A program made the position numbers and the translations under genes. A stretch of DNA of 53,978 bases. Source: Verrucomicrobiota bacterium (GTDB lineage: Bacteria; Verrucomicrobiota; Verrucomicrobiia; Limisphaerales; SIBE01). This document shows, piece after piece, positions 23,742-37,653 of this stretch; the first letter of the stretch is position 1; every line of letters begins with the position of its first letter. Below the pieces are notes generated by a model. That model worked only from the letters and a program-made list of their open reading frames with translations. It ran no database searches and was not told the DNA's origin. The stretch covers positions 1 to 53,978 of the forward strand of contig JAQBVM010000004.1 in assembly GCA_027623095.1 (NCBI GenBank). Direction: 5' to 3'.

Positions 23742-24587
23742 ATGAGTGAGACTGACGCTGAAGAGCTTTCCAAGCCTGGACAGTTCGGGCGGTACTACCT
23801 CCAAGAGTTGATTGCCAGTGGAGGAATGGCCGATATTTGGCTTGCCACGAATTCAAAAGGAGAACCGTTCGCGTTGCGCCGTCTTCGCGATTCCTCGCTC
23901 TTCAGTTTCAAGTCCAAGAAACGTTTTTTGCGCGGATGCCGAATCCTTTCGGAGATTCATGCGCACGATTATGTAATTGGATATGTCGAACATGGTAAGA
24001 TTGGAAAGTGGCTTTACCTGTTGATGGAGTATGTCGAAGCGTCCAATTTGAAACAATTGGCCGCCCGCGATGATTTGGTCCTAAGGGAGAATATCGGAAA
24101 CATTCTGATCGATATGGCGATTGCCGTGGAACATGTTCACGACAGCGGGTATATGCATTTGGACTTCAAGCCGGAGAACGTGCTCGTGACGCGAAACGCC
24201 GGAGTTCGGCTGGTCGATTTCGACCTTGCTCAGCCCCGCCCCGAAAAGCCAAAGAAAAGTTCCGACAATCCGGGTACCCCGGCGTATATGGCCCCCGAAC
24301 AATTGCAACGGCAGCCTTTCGACCACCGTGTCGATGTGTTCTCGTTTGGTGTGGCCGCCTATGAACTTTTGACAGGCCGGAAGCCGTTCATCGGAGATAC
24401 TCCGGACGAAATTCTGAGAAAGCAATTAGATCGAAGCATCGATTTCGTACCTCCACGCGAGCTGAACGCGGACATTCCGGCAGCGCTCGAGAAATCCGTT
24501 TTGCGGTGCTTGGAGCGGGATATGGATCGGCGTTACCCGCTCATAAGCGTGCTCGTTCACGAACTCCAAACGGCTCTCTACGTTTGA
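23742..24587 (+). CDS. Serine/threonine protein kinase-like protein with degenerate catalytic motifs
   Basis: Kinase fold motifs ELIASGGMADIWLA, HLDFKPENVLV, GTPAYMAPEQL, DVFSFGVAAYELLTGRKPF; but FALR for VAIK and DFD for DFG. Confidence 0.88.
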   Translation: MSETDAEELSKPGQFGRYYLQELIASGGMADIWLATNSKGEPFALRRLRDSSLFSFKSKKRFLRGCRILSEIHAHDYVIGYVEHGKIGKWLYLLMEYVEASNLKQLAARDDLVLRENIGNILIDMAIAVEHVHDSGYMHLDFKPENVLVTRNAGVRLVDFDLAQPRPEKPKKSSDNPGTPAYMAPEQLQRQPFDHRVDVFSFGVAAYELLTGRKPFIGDTPDEILRKQLDRSIDFVPPRELNADIPAALEKSVLRCLERDMDRRYPLISVLVHELQTALYV

Positions 24588-24758
24588 ACGAAAGCGGCGG
24601 GTCCTCCATAAAAACCTACGACGTTGATCCAGCCATCAGACGTTTGGCACGCAATCGTAAATAATTTGAACTTTATCTAATCTTGGCCGTCTATGAGTAT
24701 ATTCCGCGGAAAATGTTTGGAAACCGTTCCGTCGAATCGGTGTTCGAATTCAGAATAG

Positions 24759-25451
24759 GTGGAACTGGTAAGCGGTTTGCGGAAAGAGTTTTCTATCGGG
24801 GATTACTTGCAAATGAAAGACGAGGCGGGAGAGGACTTCGGTCAAATTCTGAACGGTTCGGGATCACACTCTGAGGATCTCGGAGCGGCGCAATCCCGCT
24901 CCCGCAATTCGTCAGAGTCGCTTGGTGAATCGCTTTTAAAGGTGGATATCGCTCCAACCGTGTTGCGGACTCTTCCGTCCGATTTCGTAAAACGACATCG
25001 CATCTTGCCCATTCGGATCCGAAACGGAACCCTTCATGTTGCAACTTCCGATCCCGGAAATCAGAGGGTGATCGACGACATCCGGCTCTTGACTGGCTTG
25101 GAAGTGGAAGAATCCATGGTGCCGGCTTCGGGACTACTCGAGAGAATCGCGGAGTGTTATCGAGTTACGGTGGAGCAGATGCTTGAGAACCTCGACCCGG
25201 AGCACGGTCCGGCGGCGGATGGCGGGAATTTGCATGATATCGAGGTGATGGCCAACGAACCCACGGTCATCAACCTGGTCAATGTGATTATCTCGACGGC
25301 ATTGAAAGAGCGGGCGAGCGATATTCATTTGGTGCCCTTCGAGCAGTCTCTCCAATTGCGATACCGAATTGACGGACTGCTGCAGGAAAAACCGCCTCCT
25401 CCCAAGAATCTTCATGCCGCGCTTGTCTCTAGTGTAGTGTCTTTCAAATAA
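24759..25451 (+). pseudogene. gspE: Type II secretion ATPase GspE, N-terminal part; interrupted by inserted element
   Basis: LRTLPSDFVKRHRILPIRIRNGTLHVATSDPGN, NLVNVIISTALKERASDIHLVPFEQSLQLRYRIDGLLQE; frame ends in VSFK* inside the insertion. Confidence 0.9.
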
Positions 25452-25538
25452 CTATACATACGCCGAGGCACAATGTGGCCTAAAAAGGCCGAAAAGCGAA
25501 GATTTCGAATGTATAGACATTTCGGAGACACTACACTA
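25430..25538. mobile_element. MITE-like non-autonomous element inserted in gspE with TA duplication in a CTAG target
   Basis: ctaGTGTAGTGTCT...AGACACTACACtag; subterminal ctatacat/atgtatag and internal ggcct-aaaa-aggcc palindromes; net insertion 107 bp; removal restores the GspE frame exactly. Confidence 0.92.
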
Positions 25539-25549
25539 GAGTCAAGATT

Positions 25550-26533
25550 ATGGCGGACATGAATATCGCCGAACGGTATCTGCCGCAAGACGGGCATATC
25601 CAGATTCATCATCGGGGTGTGAGAGTCGATATCCGTGTCGGAACAATGCCGACCATCTACGGAGAGAGCATGGTTTTGCGGCTCTTGGAGAAGAACTCGA
25701 AATTGCTGACGCCTCGGGAACTTGGATTGGACGAGGAACGATCGTTGCTTTTGGGCAAACTCGTGGAGAAACCACACGGTCTTTTTTTGGCGACGGGGCC
25801 CACCGGCAGCGGGAAAACCACGACCCTCTATTCGATTCTCAGCGGGATCTACGCGCCCGAGAAGAAAATCCTTACGATCGAAGATCCGGTCGAATACGAA
25901 CTCGCCGGTGTCGCTCAGATTCCGGTGCGTCCAAGCAGGGGGTTCACGTTTGCCAGCGGGCTGCGCGCTATCCTTCGGCAAGATCCTGACGTTGTCATGG
26001 TGGGGGAGATCAGAGACTCGGAGACAGCCGAGATCGCGATCCGAGCGGCTCTGACCGGGCATCAAGTATTCAGCACACTTCACACCAATGATTCAGCGGG
26101 AGCGGTGACGCGGCTGCTCGACATGGGCGTGGAGGCATTCCTGATTTCGTCCTCACTCGAGGGAGTTCTCGCGCAGCGGCTTGTTCGGGGGATATGCGCG
26201 GAATGCAAGTCGGAGAGTCCTGTGGCAGCCTCTGTTCAAGCCAAACTGAAGACGCTTGGAGGCGATCGGATCGACGGAAGATTTTTCAAAGGCAAGGGGT
26301 GCGAAGCTTGTCGTGGAACGGGCTACCGCGGTCGAGTCGGAATCTTCGAGTTGCTTTCGATTGATCAGGAGCTGCGGGAGTTGATCCTGCAAAGGCGGTC
26401 CAGTGCTGAAATCAAGACAGCGGCTCAGAAAAACATGATCACGATCCGGCAGGACGCGATTCGGAAAGCGGCGGAAGGAATTACTTCGTTGGAAGAAGTG
26501 GCCAGAGTAGCCGCCGGAGATTCAGAGGAATGA
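25550..26533 (+). pseudogene. gspE: GspE, C-terminal ATPase part (separate ORF after insertion; may or may not be translated)
   Basis: MADMNIAERYLPQDGHIQI; Walker A GPTGSGKTTTLYS; LRQDPDVVMVGEIRDSETAEIAIRAALTGHQVFSTLHTNDSAGA; four-cysteine C..C/C..C region (CAECKS..CEACRGTGY). Confidence 0.9.
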
Positions 26534-27774
26534 CCTCCTTTCGTTACCAGGCAGTTGAGTCAACCGGCGCATCCGTTCAAGGTGTGATCGACGCTGAGAA
26601 CCGAAAACAGGCACTTCAGCTTCTGGGGCAGCGCGGTCTTTTCGCATCGAATTTGCAAGCGTGCTTGAAGGGTGAGGAGAAGACTGCTCGAAGGCCGTCG
26701 TCGAATGGAGGCGTTTCACCGGGCTTTCGATGGGGTTCGCGCGTTCGCAGGAAAGAAATCACAGCTTTGACAGGAGAGCTGGCGGTCCTGTTGGAAGCGG
26801 CCATCCCGATACCCCAAGCATTGGACGGTTTGGGTGAGGAAGAGGAGAATGCGGCGCTGAAAGAGGTGTTGCGGAAGATTTCCGAATCGGTTCGAAAGGG
26901 CGCGTCCTTATCCGCCGCAATGGAGGAGCATCCTCAACTTTTCGACAAACTTTATGTGAGCATGGTGCGTGTCGGAGAGGAAGCCGGCGCCCTGCAAAAG
27001 GTCATGACGGATTTGGCCGGCTTGCTCGAACATGAGGACGAAGTGCGTAGTGAGGTCGTAGCGGCGGTTGCATACCCTGCGTTTGTAATGGTTTTCGGTG
27101 TGTTCACCGTTGGGATCCTTCTAACCGTGGTGCTCCCCCGGCTGTTCGGCATGCTGGAAGAGATGTTGGATATCCTTCCTCTGCCCACACTGATTCTTCT
27201 CAGAGTGAGCGGACTGCTGCACAGTTACTGGCCGGGATTGCTGATTGTTTTTGCGACGATTGTGGTCGGAGCACGATGGTTTTTCCGGAGGCCCGATGGA
27301 GTTGTGCTCTTGGACCGCTGCAAACTCAGTCTTCCGATATTGGGATCTGTGTTTCGCGCGGCGGCGCTCAGTCGATTTGCTCGGACTCTCGGAACGTTGG
27401 TGAAAAGTGGCGTCTCGCTTCTTCCAGCTCTGAAAATTGTTGAAAACACCATTGGAAATGTGGTTTTGGCGGGAATGATCGCTCAAGTTTCGGAGGAGAC
27501 TCGGGGAGGGGATTCGCTTGCGGCACCGCTTCGGAAATTGGGTGTGTTCCCGAAAACTGTCGTTCAGATGATTGGCGTGGGCGAGGAGACAGGGAGACTG
27601 GACGAAATGTTGCTGAAAGTGGCGAGTATTGAGGAACGTCAGATGCGCGCGCGAACCAAGGTGATGGTATCGTTGCTGGCTCCGGCGTTGATTCTGGTCG
27701 TGGGAGCTGTAGTGGGATTCATGGTAATCGCTCTGCTGCTTCCGATTTTTAAGATGAGCCAGGCGATTCATTAG
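26530..27774 (+). CDS. gspF: Type II secretion system inner membrane protein GspF
   Basis: FRYQAVESTGASVQGVIDAENRKQALQLLGQRGL; LTGELAVLLEAAIPIPQALDGL; MIGVGEETGRLDEMLLKVA. Confidence 0.95.
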   Translation: MTSFRYQAVESTGASVQGVIDAENRKQALQLLGQRGLFASNLQACLKGEEKTARRPSSNGGVSPGFRWGSRVRRKEITALTGELAVLLEAAIPIPQALDGLGEEEENAALKEVLRKISESVRKGASLSAAMEEHPQLFDKLYVSMVRVGEEAGALQKVMTDLAGLLEHEDEVRSEVVAAVAYPAFVMVFGVFTVGILLTVVLPRLFGMLEEMLDILPLPTLILLRVSGLLHSYWPGLLIVFATIVVGARWFFRRPDGVVLLDRCKLSLPILGSVFRAAALSRFARTLGTLVKSGVSLLPALKIVENTIGNVVLAGMIAQVSEETRGGDSLAAPLRKLGVFPKTVVQMIGVGEETGRLDEMLLKVASIEERQMRARTKVMVSLLAPALILVVGAVVGFMVIALLLPIFKMSQAIH

Positions 27775-27895
27775 TTCGGGATCTCCGACGTTCGTCCGTC
27801 GTGAAAGTGACGCGATCTGTCACGATTGTGAGGCGAAGCTGCGGATTTTGCGAAACGTATGGGAAGGTTCCTGGTCTTAGCTGTGTAGGACAAAT

Positions 27896-28330
27896 GTGAT
27901 GAAACTTAAGATTGATTCGAAACGGTCCGATGCCTTCACCCTGATCGAAATTATGGTCGTTGTGGTGATCCTCGGGATCCTGGCGGCGACCATTCTCCCG
28001 CAATTCATAGGCACGACCCATGAGGCGAAGGTGAGCACGGCAAAAGCGAATATTGCCGAACTCGAGTCTGCACTGGAGAGATTTAATATCCACATGGACC
28101 GTCACCCGACCTCGGATGAAGGACTCAAAGTCTTGGTTGAAGCTCCGTCAAACGATGAAAAAAAGTGGCGCGGGCCATACATCAAGGTACTTCGTCCGGA
28201 TCCATGGGAGAATCCCTACCAGTACCGAAATCCGGGGATTCATCACCAGACGAGCTTCGACATTTGGTCGAAGGGGGCGGACCGCGCTGACGGCGGCGAA
28301 GCCGAAGGCGCGGATCTTGGGAATTGGTAG
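27896..28330 (+). CDS. gspG: Type II secretion major pseudopilin GspG
   Basis: AFTLIEIMVVVVILGILAATILPQF; RHPTSDEGLKVLVEAP; GPYIKVLRPDPWENPYQYRNPG; FDIWSKGADRADGGEAEGADLGNW. Confidence 0.96.
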   Translation: MMKLKIDSKRSDAFTLIEIMVVVVILGILAATILPQFIGTTHEAKVSTAKANIAELESALERFNIHMDRHPTSDEGLKVLVEAPSNDEKKWRGPYIKVLRPDPWENPYQYRNPGIHHQTSFDIWSKGADRADGGEAEGADLGNW

Positions 28331-28407
28331 ATGCGGCTATTGGATGGGAGCTGCCTTACGTTTTATTCAGGCGGAATAGACGCGGTTTGAAAGCGATGTG
28401 AAATGCA

Positions 28408-29001
28408 ATGAGGCTCGAAGAAAATTCAACGAAAACGTCGAAGGTTGCTGGCTTTACGCTTGTTGAATTGATGGTGGTACTCGTGCTTATCGCAATCATG
28501 AGCGCGGTGATGATTCTGGAAATGAAAGGGACCTATGAGGACAGCCTCTTGCGCTCGGTCGGACGGAATTTTACGTCCGCGATCAGTTTGGCGTACAGCC
28601 GGTCGGTTACATTGAATCAGGTGCATCGGCTTAGAATCGATCCCGAAGAGAACACCTATTATGTCGAAAGCGAGGTTTCGAGTACTGGAGTTTCTGGTGT
28701 CGCGCCAGAGAGGCGGGATTTCCCAGGGAGCAAAGGAGAGTTTAGTCCGCGAGTTTCGGTGAATATCCGGTTCACCGAGCAAGCCACGGAAGAGTTGCCG
28801 AATACGGAGACCTCGAACAGTGGATCGAAATTCGCGCAAGATTCGGCGGATGATCCTGGTGGTTGGACTATCCGGTTTTTTCCGGATGGCACGGCAGAGA
28901 GCAAAGAAGTTGTGCTTGAAGACGCTGAAGGCTTCCGCATCGCATTACGCATCAATCCGATTACCGCAAGGGTCCGGATTGTTGATTTGGACCGCAAATG
29001 A
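28408..29001 (+). CDS. gspH: Type II secretion pseudopilin GspH-like
   Basis: GFTLVELMVVLVLIAIMSAVMILEM prepilin motif; position in operon. Confidence 0.82.
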   Translation: MRLEENSTKTSKVAGFTLVELMVVLVLIAIMSAVMILEMKGTYEDSLLRSVGRNFTSAISLAYSRSVTLNQVHRLRIDPEENTYYVESEVSSTGVSGVAPERRDFPGSKGEFSPRVSVNIRFTEQATEELPNTETSNSGSKFAQDSADDPGGWTIRFFPDGTAESKEVVLEDAEGFRIALRINPITARVRIVDLDRK

Positions 29002-29441
29002 ATCGCAGACACAAAACGGATGGATTCTCGCTGGTCGAAGTTATGTGCGCGATTCTGATCTTTGGTCTGAGCGTGGTGGGTTTGACACGTGGACTAACCG
29101 CCGCGCTCCTCGCGAACAAAGAATCCGAAGTGCAGACGTCGGCCGCGTTGATTGCCGCGGGTCGCATCGAGTTGCTTCGAGCCGACGGCTTCTTGAAGGA
29201 TGGGGAAGATGAGGGAGATTGTGGCGCAAACCTGCCGCTTTATCGATGGAAACAGTCGGTGACGGAAACCTCGGTGGAGGGTCTTTTCGAAGTGACGGTT
29301 ATGGTGGCGAACGCTGAATCCGGAAAACCGATCTTTGAGCTGGAGACTTTGTTGTTCGAGGCGCCTTACGATTCATCCGCTGATAATCTCGGAGGCAGCG
29401 GAAGTCAATCTCAGTCGAATCGCCAGAGGAGGCGACCGTGA
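28998..29441 (+). CDS. gspI: Type II secretion pseudopilin GspI-like
   Basis: DGFSLVEVMCAILIFGLSVVGLTRGL; overlaps the upstream stop; operon position. Confidence 0.82.
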   Translation: MNRRHKTDGFSLVEVMCAILIFGLSVVGLTRGLTAALLANKESEVQTSAALIAAGRIELLRADGFLKDGEDEGDCGANLPLYRWKQSVTETSVEGLFEVTVMVANAESGKPIFELETLLFEAPYDSSADNLGGSGSQSQSNRQRRRP

Positions 29442-30355
29442 ATTTCTCTTCGGCTAAGCGCTGGCGGCAAAAGTCCGACAGGATAAGAATTCGTTTGCCC
29501 CGAAATTGCGGAGTCAGCGGAAGATACGAAGCTTCGGTGAGTTCCTCGAGGCTGGTCATCGCGCCGGTTCCGAAATGTCGAATCGATTCCGGTTTCACTC
29601 TCATCGAACTTGTGATCAGCTCTGCGCTCACCGCAATTATTCTTATCAGCGCGTACGCATGCCTTAGAGGGGGTGTTTCGAGTGACAAATTGATCGAATC
29701 CAGATCCCGGGCGGCACAAAGCGCGCGAGTTGCCATGTCTCTAATGTCCGCGGACCTGCGGTGCGCGACGAAGCTGTCCAAGGATTTCGAGTTTCTGGGA
29801 ATGTCGAGAATGCTGGGTGACGTGGAAGCCGATAATCTCGATTTCGGGACGCGCAACTACACGCCCCGCGCTCCCCGCGAGGGGGACTTTTGCGAAGTAA
29901 GCTACTTCCTGGATAAGAACCGGGAGACGGGTTCCTACAGCCTTTGGCGGAGGCGCGATCCGACTCCCGATCCGGAGCCTCTGTCGGGAGGCAGCCGCGA
30001 GGAGATTGCCGAAGACCTGCTTGGTTTGCGGTTTGAGTATTACGACGGTTTTGAATGGTTTGACGACTGGGGCGATTCCGAGGGCAAGCGCCGGGCATCC
30101 GATTCCATTTTGGATCCCGGGAATCTGAGCGGAATGCCTGAAGCGGTGCGTATCACGATTTTGGCGGCGGTGGACAACGTGCCTGCTTCGAAGGATTCCG
30201 ATGCAATTAAGAATCGGGAACCTCCGTTGGTATTTCAGACGGTCGCCCGATTGAACATTATCGCGCCGGCCCTATCAGGGGAATCGAACGGTTCATCGAC
30301 TTCAAATCAGAGTAATCAATCTCCAGCGCCGCCTATTTCCGAGGCGAGACCATGA
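29438..30355 (+). CDS. gspJ: Type II secretion pseudopilin GspJ-like
   Basis: GFTLIELVISSALTAIILISAYACLRGG; LGLRFEYYDGFEWFDDWGDSE...LSGMPEAVRITI; operon position. Confidence 0.82.
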   Translation: MNFSSAKRWRQKSDRIRIRLPRNCGVSGRYEASVSSSRLVIAPVPKCRIDSGFTLIELVISSALTAIILISAYACLRGGVSSDKLIESRSRAAQSARVAMSLMSADLRCATKLSKDFEFLGMSRMLGDVEADNLDFGTRNYTPRAPREGDFCEVSYFLDKNRETGSYSLWRRRDPTPDPEPLSGGSREEIAEDLLGLRFEYYDGFEWFDDWGDSEGKRRASDSILDPGNLSGMPEAVRITILAAVDNVPASKDSDAIKNREPPLVFQTVARLNIIAPALSGESNGSSTSNQSNQSPAPPISEARP

Positions 30356-31821
30356 TGCGGATTTCCAACCCAATGTTGATCCGGACGACGCCTAATCGAG
30401 AATTTGCGCGCGGAAGTTCAGCAGGCTCGGTGCTTGTCGGGATTCTATGGTGTGTCGCCCTTCTAGCGGTCATTGTGGTCGGGGTCCTGTATCGCACTCG
30501 GCTTGAACTTCTGGTTGTCAAGAACCACGGGGACGGCATCCAGGCTCATTATTTGGCGCTTGCCGGAGTCGAGAAAGCGAAAGCGCTGCTCTATCACGAC
30601 GCGATTGATCGGAAGCGAAGTTCTAACAATCATTCGGGCGCGCTGTACGATTCTCCCAGTGATTTTAAGGATATTCCTTTTGGGCGCGGTGAATTTAGGG
30701 TTTTTCGCCAAGGGACAAGAGACGAGGGTGGGGGAATCAAATACGGGATCACCGACGAAGAGAGCCGTCTGAACGTGAATCGTGCCTCAGCCGAGGAAAT
30801 TGGGAAGTTATCTGAGATGACCCCGGAGATTGCGGCCGCGATAATCGATTTTCGCGATGCGGATAGCCAAGTCACGCAAGGGGGCGCGGAAGCCGAGTCT
30901 TACGCCGCCCTTCAGCCGCCTTATCTTCCTCGAGACGGGCCGTTCGAAACGACTCGCGAGTTATTGATGGTGCTCGGAATGCCCGAAGACTTGTTTAAGG
31001 GTGAGGATTCAAATCAGAATGGCATTTTGGATTCGGACGAGGATGACGGAAATGATTCCAACCCGCCGGATAATCGTGACGGAATCCTTGATGCAGGCTG
31101 GTCCGGTTTGGTGACAGTTGTTTCAGGGATTCAGGACGTGGACGCTCAAGGCGAGGCCCGCGTGAACATCGGATCGGCGGACGAGAACGCGCTCGCAGCG
31201 ATTCCGGGAATGTCCGCGGATATTGCGAAAGCGATTGTCGCTTTTCGCGGACAAAGTGAGTTGAAGAATCTCGTCGATCTTTTGGAGGTTCGGGCGATAG
31301 CGCCTCAGGGTCAACCTTCGGTTCCCCAGAACGAAAACCGTATTCAATCCGGACGCGCGGCCGGTCGAGTGGATGTCCCACAGCCCGGACGAGGAGGTCC
31401 CGCACAGTCGGCGCCGCAAACCACAGGTCCCGAACTCGTCAGCGAAGAGCTGCTGATGGAAATTGCCGATCATCTAACAGCCGGATCGGATGAAGACCAG
31501 GCAGCCGCTATCAATGTGAATACCGCCAGCGCCGAGGTGCTCGCTTGTGTTCGGGGAATAACTCGCGAAATTTCTCAGGCAATAGTCTCATACAGGCGTT
31601 CTGCCGGGTTTCTGCCCAATGTCGCACACCTTTTGCGAGTGCCGGGAATGTCTCGATCGGTTTTGAAAGAGGCGGCGCCCGCTTTGTGCGTTCGATCAGA
31701 AACATTCCGGATCCTGAGCGAAGGCCGTGTTCTCTCCACGGGCGCGCGTAAACGGATCGAGGAGATCGTCCGAGTTGGCCGTTCTTCAGTGGACACGCTG
31801 TCTTATCGGGAGGATTTATGA
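30352..31821 (+). CDS. gspK: Type II secretion GspK-like minor pseudopilin with helix-hairpin-helix repeats
   Basis: GSVLVGILWCVALLAVIVVGVLYRTRLEL; YGITDEESRLNVNRASAEEIGKL; several HhH-like units (INVNTASAEVLACVRGITREISQAIVSYR). Confidence 0.85.
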   Translation: MMRISNPMLIRTTPNREFARGSSAGSVLVGILWCVALLAVIVVGVLYRTRLELLVVKNHGDGIQAHYLALAGVEKAKALLYHDAIDRKRSSNNHSGALYDSPSDFKDIPFGRGEFRVFRQGTRDEGGGIKYGITDEESRLNVNRASAEEIGKLSEMTPEIAAAIIDFRDADSQVTQGGAEAESYAALQPPYLPRDGPFETTRELLMVLGMPEDLFKGEDSNQNGILDSDEDDGNDSNPPDNRDGILDAGWSGLVTVVSGIQDVDAQGEARVNIGSADENALAAIPGMSADIAKAIVAFRGQSELKNLVDLLEVRAIAPQGQPSVPQNENRIQSGRAAGRVDVPQPGRGGPAQSAPQTTGPELVSEELLMEIADHLTAGSDEDQAAAINVNTASAEVLACVRGITREISQAIVSYRRSAGFLPNVAHLLRVPGMSRSVLKEAAPALCVRSETFRILSEGRVLSTGARKRIEEIVRVGRSSVDTLSYREDL

Positions 31822-33359
31822 GCGCATTTGGATCGGGAAAATCATATTCGCTCTTCGTCGAGTTTGGCGAAAGTACTTTGAAAGTACTGGCCGAATCGGG
31901 TGGGTTTGAAGTTCCAATTGACCGCTTGGAAAACGGGTGTTTGTCCGAGAGTGGCAAAGCGAGGATCACCGCGGCGATTCGAGGTTTTCTCGATAAACAG
32001 AATCTAGGCAAGCGGGTTCGTGCGATCTGCGCGATTGGGGCCCGAGGTGTGTCGTTGAGGAGGTTGACACTGCCTCCCGCGGCAAAAGAGGAAGTGGCGC
32101 GCCTCATTCACCTTCAGATTGAGAACGAGTTTCCCCTTCCGCCCGAAGAGTTGGCTTGGGGATACCAGTTTCTCGGTACGAACGAACGGAATGGCGATGG
32201 AGCGCGCGGTTCACGGGAGCTTCTTGTGGCGGCTCTTAAGAAAGAGGTGATTGAGGAATACTCGGAGATCCTTTCGGGTAGCGGAGTGAAGGCAGTCTTC
32301 ACTGTCGCAGCGCTGGCCAGAGACCGGGTTTTTTCAAACCGGCCTATTTCCTATTCAGTGCTCGACATTGGCAGTGACCAGTCCGAGTTGGTGTTGTTCG
32401 AGAACGGCGTGGCGGTCTCGTTGCATGTTCTTCCATGGGGAACTGGAAACATTGGGCGCGCCTTCGAGGGCGCCGCCGCGCAAGATGAAGACGCTTCGGG
32501 CAGGTCAGGCGCCGAGTGTGAGTTAGGATCGGATCCAAACCGCGAAGAATTGTCCACCCGTTCCGTTTGGGACGAGGCCAAGCGGCTTTCCAGCTTGATT
32601 GGAGGGAGTCCGGCGGGACGCAAGGTGTTTGTTGCCGGAGAGAATCTAAAGTTGTCTGCTATCACGAGTGAGCTGCGAATGGCGTTGGATGGAGCCGTTG
32701 AATTGGAACAGACGGAATTCTCCGCCGAGACTGGACGCTCCGCGGCAACGGTAGGTCTCATGACTGCGTCCGCGAAAGGTGCAGCGGGATCGCTTTTGGC
32801 CCTGGAGGTCCGGGAGACTGCGGATGGGGAAAGTATCGTGCGGCAAAAGGGGTGGAGATGGGCGGCCCTTGCCGCCGCGCTGGCGATCTGTTCGATATCG
32901 TTTCGATACATTGAGGCGTATGTGAAAAAACCTGAATTGGCGCAAAGATTGTCGGAGATCAGGGCGGAGAAAAACAAACTTCCGGAGATCGATCGTGAAG
33001 TTGCGTTTATGCAATTCTTGAATACGAATCGGGCGCCTTACTTGGAGGCAATTTCCGTATTGGCGGATGCAGCCACGCGAGGAGCTCGGTTTGAAACGCT
33101 TTCATTGAATCGTCGCGGGGAGTTATCGCTTCGGGGGACAATGGGAAATTCGCAACAGGCAACCGATTTCCGGACGAAACTGACAGAATCAGGAATGTTT
33201 TCGAGCGTCAGCGTGGAGGAGCAAAATCCCGATCAGAATCGGCAAAAGATCGGCGTGAGAATCACCGCGCGATGGAACATTGTTCAGAGGCGAGTGGCCG
33301 AATCTGCCGTTAATCAAAGCGAAAAGAAACCGCCGGATGGGAAGGGTTTGGAGAAATAA
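31818..33359 (+). CDS. GspL/PilM-like actin-fold assembly protein
   Basis: LFVEFGESTLKVLAESGGF; VARLIHLQIENEFPLPPEELAWGYQFL; YSVLDIGSDQSELVLFENG; C-terminal TM and periplasmic part. Confidence 0.72.
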   Translation: MSAFGSGKSYSLFVEFGESTLKVLAESGGFEVPIDRLENGCLSESGKARITAAIRGFLDKQNLGKRVRAICAIGARGVSLRRLTLPPAAKEEVARLIHLQIENEFPLPPEELAWGYQFLGTNERNGDGARGSRELLVAALKKEVIEEYSEILSGSGVKAVFTVAALARDRVFSNRPISYSVLDIGSDQSELVLFENGVAVSLHVLPWGTGNIGRAFEGAAAQDEDASGRSGAECELGSDPNREELSTRSVWDEAKRLSSLIGGSPAGRKVFVAGENLKLSAITSELRMALDGAVELEQTEFSAETGRSAATVGLMTASAKGAAGSLLALEVRETADGESIVRQKGWRWAALAAALAICSISFRYIEAYVKKPELAQRLSEIRAEKNKLPEIDREVAFMQFLNTNRAPYLEAISVLADAATRGARFETLSLNRRGELSLRGTMGNSQQATDFRTKLTESGMFSSVSVEEQNPDQNRQKIGVRITARWNIVQRRVAESAVNQSEKKPPDGKGLEK

Positions 33360-33363
33360 TGTG

Positions 33364-33924
33364 ATGCGCTCGCTGACTGATCATGAGAAACGGACAATCC
33401 GAATCGCTGCAATTGCGATTTCGATCTACCTCGCTGCCTTTTACGGGTTTAAGACATGGAAACGTCTTGAGTCGAGACACGCGGATTACCGTCAACTGAT
33501 CGGCGAAGCCAATTCCACGCGGTTGGAATTGCAGCAATATGAGGACAAAGTGCTGGTGCTTGAGAAACTTCGCAAGGCGATCCCCATCGATCTTTCCAGA
33601 GTTTCGAAAGCGACGGTCGTCGGCGAGATTAGCGCGGCAATTCAGGCGGCGGCGCAATCGGGAGGTGTTCAGTTGGGACCCTTGCGCGAGTCTCCGGCGC
33701 GCTCTTCGGCAAAGGAGTTGGCATCGATGCAATTGGAAGGATCAGGGCAGGTGGAGTCGATTATGGCGTTCCTTCACGCCGTTGAGCGCTTGAATTTCCC
33801 GTTGGTGTTGGACTCGGTTCAGATTGATCCTGATCCGAAGAAACCCGGGGCGATCAAGGTCAGTCTGACAATCGCCATTCTGAACTTCGAGGAGTGGCAA
33901 AAGGGAGGGGGCGGCAATGTCTGA
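33364..33924 (+). CDS. GspM/PilO-like type II secretion assembly protein
   Basis: Single N-terminal TM (IRIAAIAISIYLAAFYGF), coiled coil, C-terminal ferredoxin-like region (GSGQVESIMAFLHAVERLNFPLVLDSVQIDPDPKKPGAIKVSLTI). Confidence 0.65.
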   Translation: MRSLTDHEKRTIRIAAIAISIYLAAFYGFKTWKRLESRHADYRQLIGEANSTRLELQQYEDKVLVLEKLRKAIPIDLSRVSKATVVGEISAAIQAAAQSGGVQLGPLRESPARSSAKELASMQLEGSGQVESIMAFLHAVERLNFPLVLDSVQIDPDPKKPGAIKVSLTIAILNFEEWQKGGGGNV

Positions 33925-34435
33925 ACGCTTGGAATCAGCGCTCAAGATCGTCTGTCTGATGCTCGCGGGATTAGTCCTGTTTCATGCGGCGCGGCTTGCG
34001 GCGAGCCAGGGCCCGCTCAAAGAAGTCCATGTTCCGATCCCGCCCGCGCCTCCTGTTGCAGCGGTGAACGTGGCGTCAAGCAAGATACCGGGCGCGCCGG
34101 TTCGAGGAATGCCGCCGGGACGGACGAAATCCAGTCTTCCAGACGCGATTCAAAAGTCCGTTGACAAAATTGTGCAGAGCGAAATCTTGGGTCCGGTTGT
34201 CCGCCCGCCGCCGATGGCGCTTCTAGGGATTGCCGGCCTGGATGCGTTGATGCGCGGACCGAACGGCCAAACGAGTCTGTTAAGACTGGGTGGCGAAATG
34301 GGAGGAATCAAATTGCTGCAAATTGGCACGAATCGAGTGCTAATCGAACATGAAGGAGAGAAGAAAGAATTGACGATTTTTTCGGGTTTCGGCGGAGAAA
34401 CCCTGTTGTCGAAAGAAAAGGAGAATGAAAAGTGA
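33917..34435 (+). CDS. GspC/PilP-like periplasmic component of the secretion system
   Basis: N-terminal TM, Pro-rich linker, LLGIAGLDALMRGPNGQTSLLRLGGEMGGIKLLQIGTNRVLIEHEGEKKELTIF; directly upstream of the secretin. Confidence 0.55.
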   Translation: MSERLESALKIVCLMLAGLVLFHAARLAASQGPLKEVHVPIPPAPPVAAVNVASSKIPGAPVRGMPPGRTKSSLPDAIQKSVDKIVQSEILGPVVRPPPMALLGIAGLDALMRGPNGQTSLLRLGGEMGGIKLLQIGTNRVLIEHEGEKKELTIFSGFGGETLLSKEKENEK

Positions 34436-37400
34436 AATTGACGAATAGTCCAAAATTCAAACTGAGCCTGCTCGCTGCTTTCTTTTGCGTTGTGATCGCA
34501 TACGGATTGCTCTTTCGCGGTGGACCCAGAGAAATTGCCGCTCAGAATTCGCAAACGGAGCGTGAGGTAACTGCGCCGATTGCGGAGCCCTCCAGCAGTC
34601 GCGAAGCGGTGGCGGAAGCCGCCTCGGGGCCGGCACCGGCTCCAGGACCCGTTTTGACAAATTCGACGCCGCCACTTCCGATAGAGCCGGGGCAAGGATT
34701 GATCGTACCGACAATCCCGAATCCAGCGGTGGCTGGCTCCCAGCCAAAAGAGGAAGAAGAGGCATTGTCACTTTCCGACGAGATCTCCTTGAGCTTTCAG
34801 CAAGCCAACATCGAAATGGTGGTTCAGTGGCTTGCAAAGACTACAGGCAAGAGCGTCGTCAAACACCCTCGCGTTCAGTGCCAGTTAACCATTGTCAGCT
34901 CGAAGAAACTCAAAGTCCGTGAGGCGCTGACGCTTGTATATCGCGCCCTGTCTTTGGAAGGCTTTGCGACAATCGAGTCGAGCAAATCGATCTTGATTGT
35001 TCCCGAGGGCCAGGAACCCAAAATGAGTCCCGAACTCATGGATGGAAACTCGGGTGAGATTCCCGAGGGACGGCAGCGCTTAATCAAAGTGTTTCCATTG
35101 AAAAATATTCTCCCGAGCGAATTGAAGGAGAAGATTCGGGGCGTCCTCTCCGAAAAGGGGACCATCGACGAAGATACCCGGGCTAATCAAATCATCGTCA
35201 CGGATTACACGGACAACGTTCGATTGATTGGGGAGCTTATCAAAGAGCTGGATATTGCTTCTGTGTCGGACACTGTGATTGAAATTTTTTCGTTGCGATA
35301 TTTGGAAGCCGAGGAATTGGCAAGCTTGCTGAATCTCGTATTGAATTCGCAAGCGGGGAGTCCGTCGCCTCCTCCTGGATCTTCAGGATCGTCCGGGAGC
35401 AGTTCGCAGTCGTCACGAGTCGTATCAATGCCTCCTGGAATGGTTGTGAGCTCAAGCTCAAGCCCGCCGGCGGGAGGACCTCCACCACCGAAAGGCGGGC
35501 AGATGTCCGGTCAAGAAATTCATCTCTGGCCTGATCGGACGTCCAACCGATTGATTGTCGCCGCTCCGAAGTCGAAACTTGGCGAGGTCAAAAGATTGAT
35601 CGATATTTTGGATGCGGCAAAACCCCAGGACGTGGGGATTCGCGTCATTGCGCTAAAACATGTGAGCGCCGAGGATTTGGTGAAAGAGATTGCGCCCCTG
35701 TATCAGAAGTTGAGTGGCAGGTCCCTGAAGGACATTATCGAAGTCACTGCCAATATTCGTTCCAACTCGTTAATTGTTCTCTCGAGCGAGGCGAATTTCG
35801 CGGAGCTTCAGAAATTGACCACGAAGCTGGATACCGAAGAGGCGCAGGAGAGAGTGATGCAGGCATTCGCGCTCAAGAACGCGGATGCGGAGGATGTTGC
35901 CGAGCAGTTGCAGGAGTTGAATCAGGACCAGAGCTCGAGCTCGAGATATGTTTATTACTACTCGCCATTCTCGAACAATCAGAACCGGAAGAAGGTGAGT
36001 GTGGTAGCTGACAAACGGCGAAATACTGTGATTGTGCAGGCGTCGCCTGGAGCCATCGACGGCATCGGGGCGATGATTCGCGAACTGGACAAACCCGTGA
36101 CGGACGACAGCCTCGCCCCGAAAATCTATCCGCTCAAATACGTGAGCGCCGTCGATATCGAGACGGTTCTGAACGAATTGTTCGTTAAAAAACAGGAGCA
36201 GCGCAGCTATTTTGACTACTACTATTTCGATTCCGGTAACAGTTCCCGAGATAAGGACGCCGGCCGGATGTTTGGAAAAGTCCGAATTACAAGTGAACCT
36301 TATTCGAATTCGATTATCGTTACGTCCAATTCGCCGGAGAATCTTGAAGCTGTGGAGGCGGTCCTTAAGCAGTTGGATGCTCCGTCTCAGGCCGGAGAAA
36401 GCACGCTTCGAATCGGGCTTCGATTCGCGACTGCTTCAGATGTTGCTAAGAGTATCAATATTCTCTTCGCCAAGAACGGATCACCGCCGTTGCGGCCCGT
36501 GCAACCGCAAAGACAGCAAAACCAAAATCCGCAGCAGCAAGGCGGCCAGCAGAATTCGCTTTCGGCGAACTTTGATTTGGATGAGGAATCAGATGAAGAG
36601 GGATATTTCCCCTGGCTCGGAGGTCAGCCGGATAACCAGCGCACGGCTGATGGAAGGAGCGTTCGTCCGGTAAGCGATTTAGTCGGCAAAGTGCGGGTTG
36701 TTCCGGATCCGCGCAGTAACTCACTGCTCCTCTCGGCGAACGTTCACTATTTTCCACAAGTATTGAAGTTGATTGAAGACCTGGATGCTCCCACGTCAGA
36801 AGTGTTGATTGAGGCCAGGATTGTTGAAGTTTCCAGTGATTATCTGGATAAACTGGGTGTGCGGTGGTCTCCGGACGGGAGCAAGGTGTTTTCCGGATCG
36901 GATTACGACAATTCTTTCATCATCGGGTCCAGCGGGAAATATACGAAAGGTTTTGGAGGAACGACATCAGGGAACTCCAGTGGGGCGGGTTCGGCCATTT
37001 CCGCGCTTGCGAACTTAAAGTCCGGGGTTCTCGAGAGCACGATCAGCATGGATTTCTTGGTCCAGTTTCTCAAACAGAACACGGCCGCCACCGTGCTGGC
37101 ACAGCCGCAGATCAACATCAAGGACAACGAAACAGGAAAACTCTTCGTAGGCCAGCAGGTGCCGATTCCCGCGAATAATCAAGTGAATCAATTGGGCGGG
37201 CAGAACACCCAGATCGGTTACAAAGATGTCGGAGTGGTCTTGGAGGTAACACCGCATATCAACAAATCCGGCGACGTCTCGTTGAAGATCCACGCTGAAT
37301 CGTCCTCCATCGTTCCGGGTCAGACGGTGTTGGGCGGAGCTGTCTTCGACACACGAAATTTTAAAACTCATCTTGAGGCGAAGAGCGGAGAAACTCTGGT

Positions 37401-37653
37401 TCTGGGCGGAATCATTCAACGGCAAGTTTCGGATACCGTGAGGAAGACCCCGATTCTGGGGAGCATTCCGGGTCTGGGCTGGGCGTTCAAGAAAAAGGAT
37501 AAGATTACGCGCGAAGTCGAATTGATGGTTTTCCTGCGGACGACCGTGGTTCGCACGCCTGAGGATGCGAAGGCGCTCCTTGAAGAGACCGATCGAAAGA
37601 TGCCGCTCATCAAAAAATGGCGCGACGAAAGCGAGAATCGCCAGTCCCCATAA
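34432..37653 (+). CDS. gspD: Type II secretion secretin GspD with expanded N-domain array
   Basis: N0 (ISLSFQQANIEMVVQWLAKTTGKSVV), repeated N1-type units, C-terminal secretin core VLAQPQINIKDNETGKLFVGQQVPI...GETLVLGGIIQRQVSDTVRKTPILGSIPGLGWAFK. Confidence 0.96.
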   Translation: MKLTNSPKFKLSLLAAFFCVVIAYGLLFRGGPREIAAQNSQTEREVTAPIAEPSSSREAVAEAASGPAPAPGPVLTNSTPPLPIEPGQGLIVPTIPNPAVAGSQPKEEEEALSLSDEISLSFQQANIEMVVQWLAKTTGKSVVKHPRVQCQLTIVSSKKLKVREALTLVYRALSLEGFATIESSKSILIVPEGQEPKMSPELMDGNSGEIPEGRQRLIKVFPLKNILPSELKEKIRGVLSEKGTIDEDTRANQIIVTDYTDNVRLIGELIKELDIASVSDTVIEIFSLRYLEAEELASLLNLVLNSQAGSPSPPPGSSGSSGSSSQSSRVVSMPPGMVVSSSSSPPAGGPPPPKGGQMSGQEIHLWPDRTSNRLIVAAPKSKLGEVKRLIDILDAAKPQDVGIRVIALKHVSAEDLVKEIAPLYQKLSGRSLKDIIEVTANIRSNSLIVLSSEANFAELQKLTTKLDTEEAQERVMQAFALKNADAEDVAEQLQELNQDQSSSSRYVYYYSPFSNNQNRKKVSVVADKRRNTVIVQASPGAIDGIGAMIRELDKPVTDDSLAPKIYPLKYVSAVDIETVLNELFVKKQEQRSYFDYYYFDSGNSSRDKDAGRMFGKVRITSEPYSNSIIVTSNSPENLEAVEAVLKQLDAPSQAGESTLRIGLRFATASDVAKSINILFAKNGSPPLRPVQPQRQQNQNPQQQGGQQNSLSANFDLDEESDEEGYFPWLGGQPDNQRTADGRSVRPVSDLVGKVRVVPDPRSNSLLLSANVHYFPQVLKLIEDLDAPTSEVLIEARIVEVSSDYLDKLGVRWSPDGSKVFSGSDYDNSFIIGSSGKYTKGFGGTTSGNSSGAGSAISALANLKSGVLESTISMDFLVQFLKQNTAATVLAQPQINIKDNETGKLFVGQQVPIPANNQVNQLGGQNTQIGYKDVGVVLEVTPHINKSGDVSLKIHAESSSIVPGQTVLGGAVFDTRNFKTHLEAKSGETLVLGGIIQRQVSDTVRKTPILGSIPGLGWAFKKKDKITREVELMVFLRTTVVRTPEDAKALLEETDRKMPLIKKWRDESENRQSP

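Follow-up and report, generated by a model that had tools for sequence, protein, structure and literature searches.

What split gspE, the ATPase gene in a type II secretion operon, into two reading frames, and does the system still work? In the window (the whole 53,978-nucleotide stretch of Verrucomicrobiota DNA analysed here), the operon runs in the order E-F-G-H-I-J-K-L-M-N-D (24759-37653) and is preceded by a protein-kinase-like ORF (23742-24587). The reading that we prefer, with a probability of about 0.72, is that gspE was split when an IS630-type MITE recently inserted there, which most likely disabled this accessory T2SS in the cells that carry the insertion.

An insertion interrupts gspE within the N2 domain

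The features at the split are the following.

24759-25451, plus strand: GspE N-part ORF, MshEN/N1 and first half of N2 (MshEN 7e-17; T2SSE profile positions 6-63)
25429-25432, no strand: left CTAG target junction (TA 25430-25431, duplicated as 25537-25538)
25430-25538, no strand: the element as a TA...TA unit, 109 bp (105-bp core and both TA copies)
25432-25538, no strand: net inserted DNA, 107 bp
25473-25562, plus strand: mini-ORF borne by the element, 29 aa (MWPKKAEKRRFRMYRHFGDTTLESRLWRT), in the frame of the N-part (SD-like GAGG, -5.9 kcal/mol; putative function)
25550-26533, plus strand: GspE ATPase part, second half of N2 and C-terminal ATPase domain (T2SSE 9e-111, profile positions 67-370)
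25670-26533, plus strand: possible shorter ATPase product from Met41 (SD-like GGAG; putative)

The N-part ORF starts at GTG 24759, with the in-frame ATG 24813 as a possible alternative, and ends LVSSVVSFK (...LHAALVSSVVSFK, then stop) at TAA 25449-25451, which lies in the inserted DNA. The ATPase part begins MADMNIAERYL at ATG 25550 in a different frame and carries the Walker A motif GPTGSGKTT and a CxxC...CxxC motif. The 107-bp net insertion, which includes one copy of the duplicated TA, shifts the frame by 2 modulo 3. An earlier note, made from the letters alone, had said that the insertion brings both a stop and a frame shift into gspE and that the ATPase half retains an in-frame ATG behind the element, and both statements hold.

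According to the same note the break follows the N-terminal domains; it actually falls inside N2. The two parts match the Pfam T2SSE profile at 6-63 and 67-370, the chain of PDB 1p9r at 28-89 and 92-409, and that of 4pht at 6-176 and 179-497, and the gene is therefore cut within this domain. In GspE, N1 docks on GspL, and the hexameric ring is made up of N2 and the C-terminal domain (PMC6882859). The locus has the MshEN/N1 and T2SSE ATPase domains of a gspE orthologue in a gsp operon. Its product is not a single continuous polypeptide (TAA 25449 and the frame shift), and we therefore class it as a disrupted gspE. It shares with GspE/PulE/EpsE the MshEN/N1, N2 and C-terminal ATPase domains, the tetracysteine motif and the gsp operon, and differs from them in being cut inside N2 into two ORFs.

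The remainder of the operon, all on the plus strand, is as follows.

26530-27774, plus strand: gspF (ORF list, Pfam)
27896-28330, plus strand: gspG, major pseudopilin (T2SSG 6.5e-33)
28408-30355, plus strand: gspH-, gspI- and gspJ-like minor pseudopilins (ORF list, Pfam)
30352-31821, plus strand: gspK (Pfam)
31818-34435, plus strand: gspL-, gspM- and gspN-like genes (position and length; GspL homologues in 8 relatives)
34432-37653, plus strand: gspD, secretin (Pfam)

The names gspL, gspM and gspN are assigned from operon position, and the products of these three genes had no match in the Pfam search. The downstream genes had been described as intact, with overlapping start and stop codons throughout. 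Their ORFs and Pfam matches bear out the first part, but not every junction overlaps: E/F, H/I, I/J, J/K, K/L, M/N and N/D do, and spacers of about 121 bp and about 77 bp separate F from G and G from H.

The inserted element and its copies

By its sequence features, the element is an IS630/Tc1-mariner-type MITE: a short non-coding unit with terminal inverted repeats (TIRs), a TA target-site duplication and multiple near-identical copies. Its ends are 13-bp perfect TIRs (TAGTGTAGTGTCT) and are near-inverted across about 30 bp. A duplicated TA is the signature of IS630/Tc1-mariner elements, for example ISY100 (PMC2170065). Rejoining the gspE flanks over a single TA gives ...ALVSRVKIMADMNIAER..., in agreement with the unbroken orthologues in eight relatives. 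The genome (7.4 Mb in 561 contigs) contains eight copies of the 109-bp unit, 100% identical to one another, so it is not a chance repeat. All eight are flanked as C-TA...TA-G, a CTAG context that only 39 of the 1260 TA sites of the window share.

The element region is predicted to fold strongly as RNA (-61.8 kcal/mol over 161 nt, z = -7.1). No terminator was found within the element, and the one weak promoter match (25514-25542, 9/12) is within chance expectation. A plasmid search returned no similar DNA. We also considered a known intron or RNA family at this position; an Rfam search of 24600-26600 gave no match up to E = 1.

Two other copies also break genes. On contig C428 the element interrupts a continuous minus-strand gene, between ...NTPPFTL and AQVNAQPGAGFDN..., and on C488 (L099:7217-7325) it interrupts a HATPase-domain gene after about 26 codons. 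Within the C488 copy, an ATG opens an ORF (MWPKKAEK...) that continues in frame into the HATPase-domain gene and could give it a new N-terminus. On C177 the element has entered a HAD-like hydrolase gene a few codons short of its end. The C421 copy (L101:6262-6370) has entered the stop codon, TAG, of a cytochrome c gene; there the duplicated TA restores the stop and the protein is unchanged. The copies on C68, C257 and C320 appear to be intergenic.

A probable longer IS630-like partner

Five contig ends (C351, C190, C357, C165 and C127) carry the same 13-bp TIR together with AAATAACTAGACA, and 24-27 of 30 bases match between the MITE and these ends. Their translations resemble the ends of complete IS630 transposases: in two of the five the sequence leads to an ATG start codon (MPK...), and of the remaining three the longest gives ...CTTRKVRKKAESIV and then stop, like the C-terminal residues of the IS630 transposases of L080 and L082. 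Neither Pfam DDE_3 nor a full-length IS630 transposase query matched a transposase body in the assembly, probably because the repeat contigs are missing or collapsed, and we therefore infer the longer partner from its ends. A search of public genomes with the terminal pattern showed that other bacteria have full-length elements, about 1150-1200 bp long, that end in the same way; these also occupy C-TA...TA-G sites, and their products match DDE_3 and HTH_32. Another Verrucomicrobia MAG contains a different MITE of 119 bp (L074:5428-5546) with the same 13-bp ends in a C-TA..TA-G site.

The similarity of the ends suggests that the MITE would be mobilised in trans, by a transposase encoded on a longer IS630-like element of its own genome. 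The MITE entered the TA of a CTAG within gspE and duplicated that TA, the 107 bp of net insertion bringing a stop and a frame shift into the middle of N2.

Relatives and age of the insertion

In a blastn comparison with 39 relatives, the matches to orthologous gspE are interrupted precisely where the element lies (query 671/672 and 784). Eight orthologues (L105, L106 and L043-L048) are unbroken single gspE ORFs reading ...SRIKIMADM(N/D)IAER..., and that of L105 is 76% identical in the N-part and 80% in the C-part. Both halves keep the conserved positions, save a few residues at the junction: the ATPase half breaks none of the columns that are invariant in the other eight, each of which itself breaks 2-16, and in the N-part three such columns are broken, two at the junction itself. 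Since the copies of the element are identical and the gene and operon are otherwise free of decay, the insertion looks recent. With a recent insertion, the intact halves and downstream genes are no sign of selection to keep them.

The operon is patchy, with clear GspL homologues in 8 of the 39 relatives; in the one genome of the same genus we found no clear GspL homologue and no close copy of the operon. Because of this patchy distribution, loss of the type II system of the window is probably tolerated.

Translation of the ATPase half

The earlier note saw no convincing Shine-Dalgarno sequence before ATG 25550, and the calculated pairing agrees: the best anti-SD pairing is -2.4 kcal/mol, a value equalled or bettered at 70% of all ATGs in the window. 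Pairing is stronger at ATG 25670 (Met41; -6.6 kcal/mol, with 13% of window ATGs as good or better), from which the shorter product could start. The TGA of the mini-ORF (25560-25562) and the codon for Met4 in the ATPase half (ATG 25559) share bases as ATGA, a coupling layout also seen at E/F and other operon junctions, and the mini-ORF could thus relay ribosomes to the ATPase half. As the overlap depends on the gspE target sequence, it is most simply due to chance.

In Vibrio cholerae, removal of the N1 region leaves EpsE unable to support secretion in vivo (PMC5061722), and by analogy the ATPase half alone should not suffice. Carrier cells would have an N-part made up of N1 and half of N2, and translation of the ATPase part would be poorly initiated at best; with these two parts, the type II secretion system would most likely not work.

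Other T2SSE ATPases in the genome

A second complete gspE, a possibility raised in the earlier note, is indeed present and intact on contig C359, but it is not paired with the split operon and has type II genes of its own. The 585-aa GspE is accompanied by gspF, pseudopilins, gspK, gspL/M-like genes and secretin pieces, and by its gene content this locus is a second type II system. It is 52.9% identical to the ATPase half and about 32% identical in the N-part, and is therefore no obvious stand-in for the split GspE. Further members of the T2SSE family are encoded on C66, C294 and C290.

The member on C290 (L097:5023-6240) is an apparently orphan ATPase of 405 aa without the MshEN domain. The C359 secretin lies in two ORFs (L107:10443-13280), of 530 aa with N0/Secretin_N and of 406 aa with the channel domain; each begins with a signal-peptide-like sequence. 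The same contig has two large neighbouring ORFs of 681 and 1169 aa (L107:12-5563); the start of the first resembles an HSP90-like/sacsin-type ATPase.

Alternative explanations

The two halves might both be made and re-associate, with ribosomes stopping at 25451, restarting at 25473, ending at 25560-25562 and restarting at 25559. The mini-ORF in the frame of the N-part with its SD-like GAGG, the ATGA in which its stop overlaps an ATG in the frame of the ATPase half, and the absence of decay in either half all speak for a two-piece GspE. However, the split lies within a folded domain, the predicted stem of the element is very strong, the eight orthologues examined are all unsplit, the target-dependent ATGA is most simply fortuitous, and the insertion is too young for the lack of decay to indicate selection. 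We consider such a GspE unlikely, and it is very unlikely that the MITE has turned gspE into a working two-gene motor in which the mini-ORF relays ribosomes to the ATGA-coupled start and the halves rebuild N2. Of the readings put forward in the earlier note, that of two working polypeptides thus found no positive support beyond an ORF layout that looks accidental, and recent inactivation is the best supported, given the identical copies, the lack of decay, the unbroken orthologues and the break inside a folded domain.

Recent inactivation is compatible with a polymorphic insertion, in which other cells would keep the empty site and a working operon. The recent movement implied by the identical copies and the intact state of the remaining operon fit this possibility, which we put at somewhat less than even odds; the genome of the same genus, which has no close copy of the operon, tells against it. 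It is quite unlikely that the split operon is powered in trans by the GspE of C359 or by the orphan ATPase of C290: the former is intact and resembles the ATPase half, and C66, C294 and C290 add more members of the family, but the low identity of the C359 protein in the N-part concerns the region whose N1 docks on GspL, and its gene sits among its own gspF-to-M-like genes and secretin pieces. The fragmentation of the assembly into 561 contigs could have let a repeat be misjoined into gspE. Such an artefact is highly improbable, however, as both flanks belong to one gene in the correct order with a proper TA duplication, and the copies on C428 and C488 likewise have matching flanks and TA duplications.

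Comparison with known elements and significance

The splitting of a gene by a MITE is an already known kind of mutation. The repeat unit of pneumococcus (RUP) is a MITE linked to IS630-Spn1 that disrupts genes, and a kinase gene with a RUP insertion was annotated as two CDSs (PMC2229807, PMC3049150). Going by its published description, RUP resembles the gspE element in its 107 bp and its TA target and, probably, in having ends similar to those of an IS630 element that the genome also carries. It differs in having a listed TIR of 9 bp (13 bp and perfect here), about 108 copies (8 found here, all 8 in CTAG targets) and stops in all six frames, whereas the element described here is partly open in some frames. 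IS630/Tc1-mariner elements such as ISY100 share the TA duplication, and full-length relatives with the same ends encode DDE_3/HTH_32 transposases, for which the gspE element is too short. Rickettsia palindromic elements, Correia and ERIC are also small mobile repeats that occur within genes (PMC2229807), but they give in-frame fusions and a readable protein, whereas the gspE insertion brings a stop and shifts the frame.

The locus calls for caution in gene calling, since the split gspE is readily taken for two secretion genes. Should the two halves in fact work together, this would mean that a mobile element can split the gene of a hexameric motor without loss of function. On the reading that we prefer, that of recent inactivation, the locus would be a clean recent case in which a secretion operon of an uncultured Verrucomicrobia-type lineage was disabled by an IS630-type MITE.
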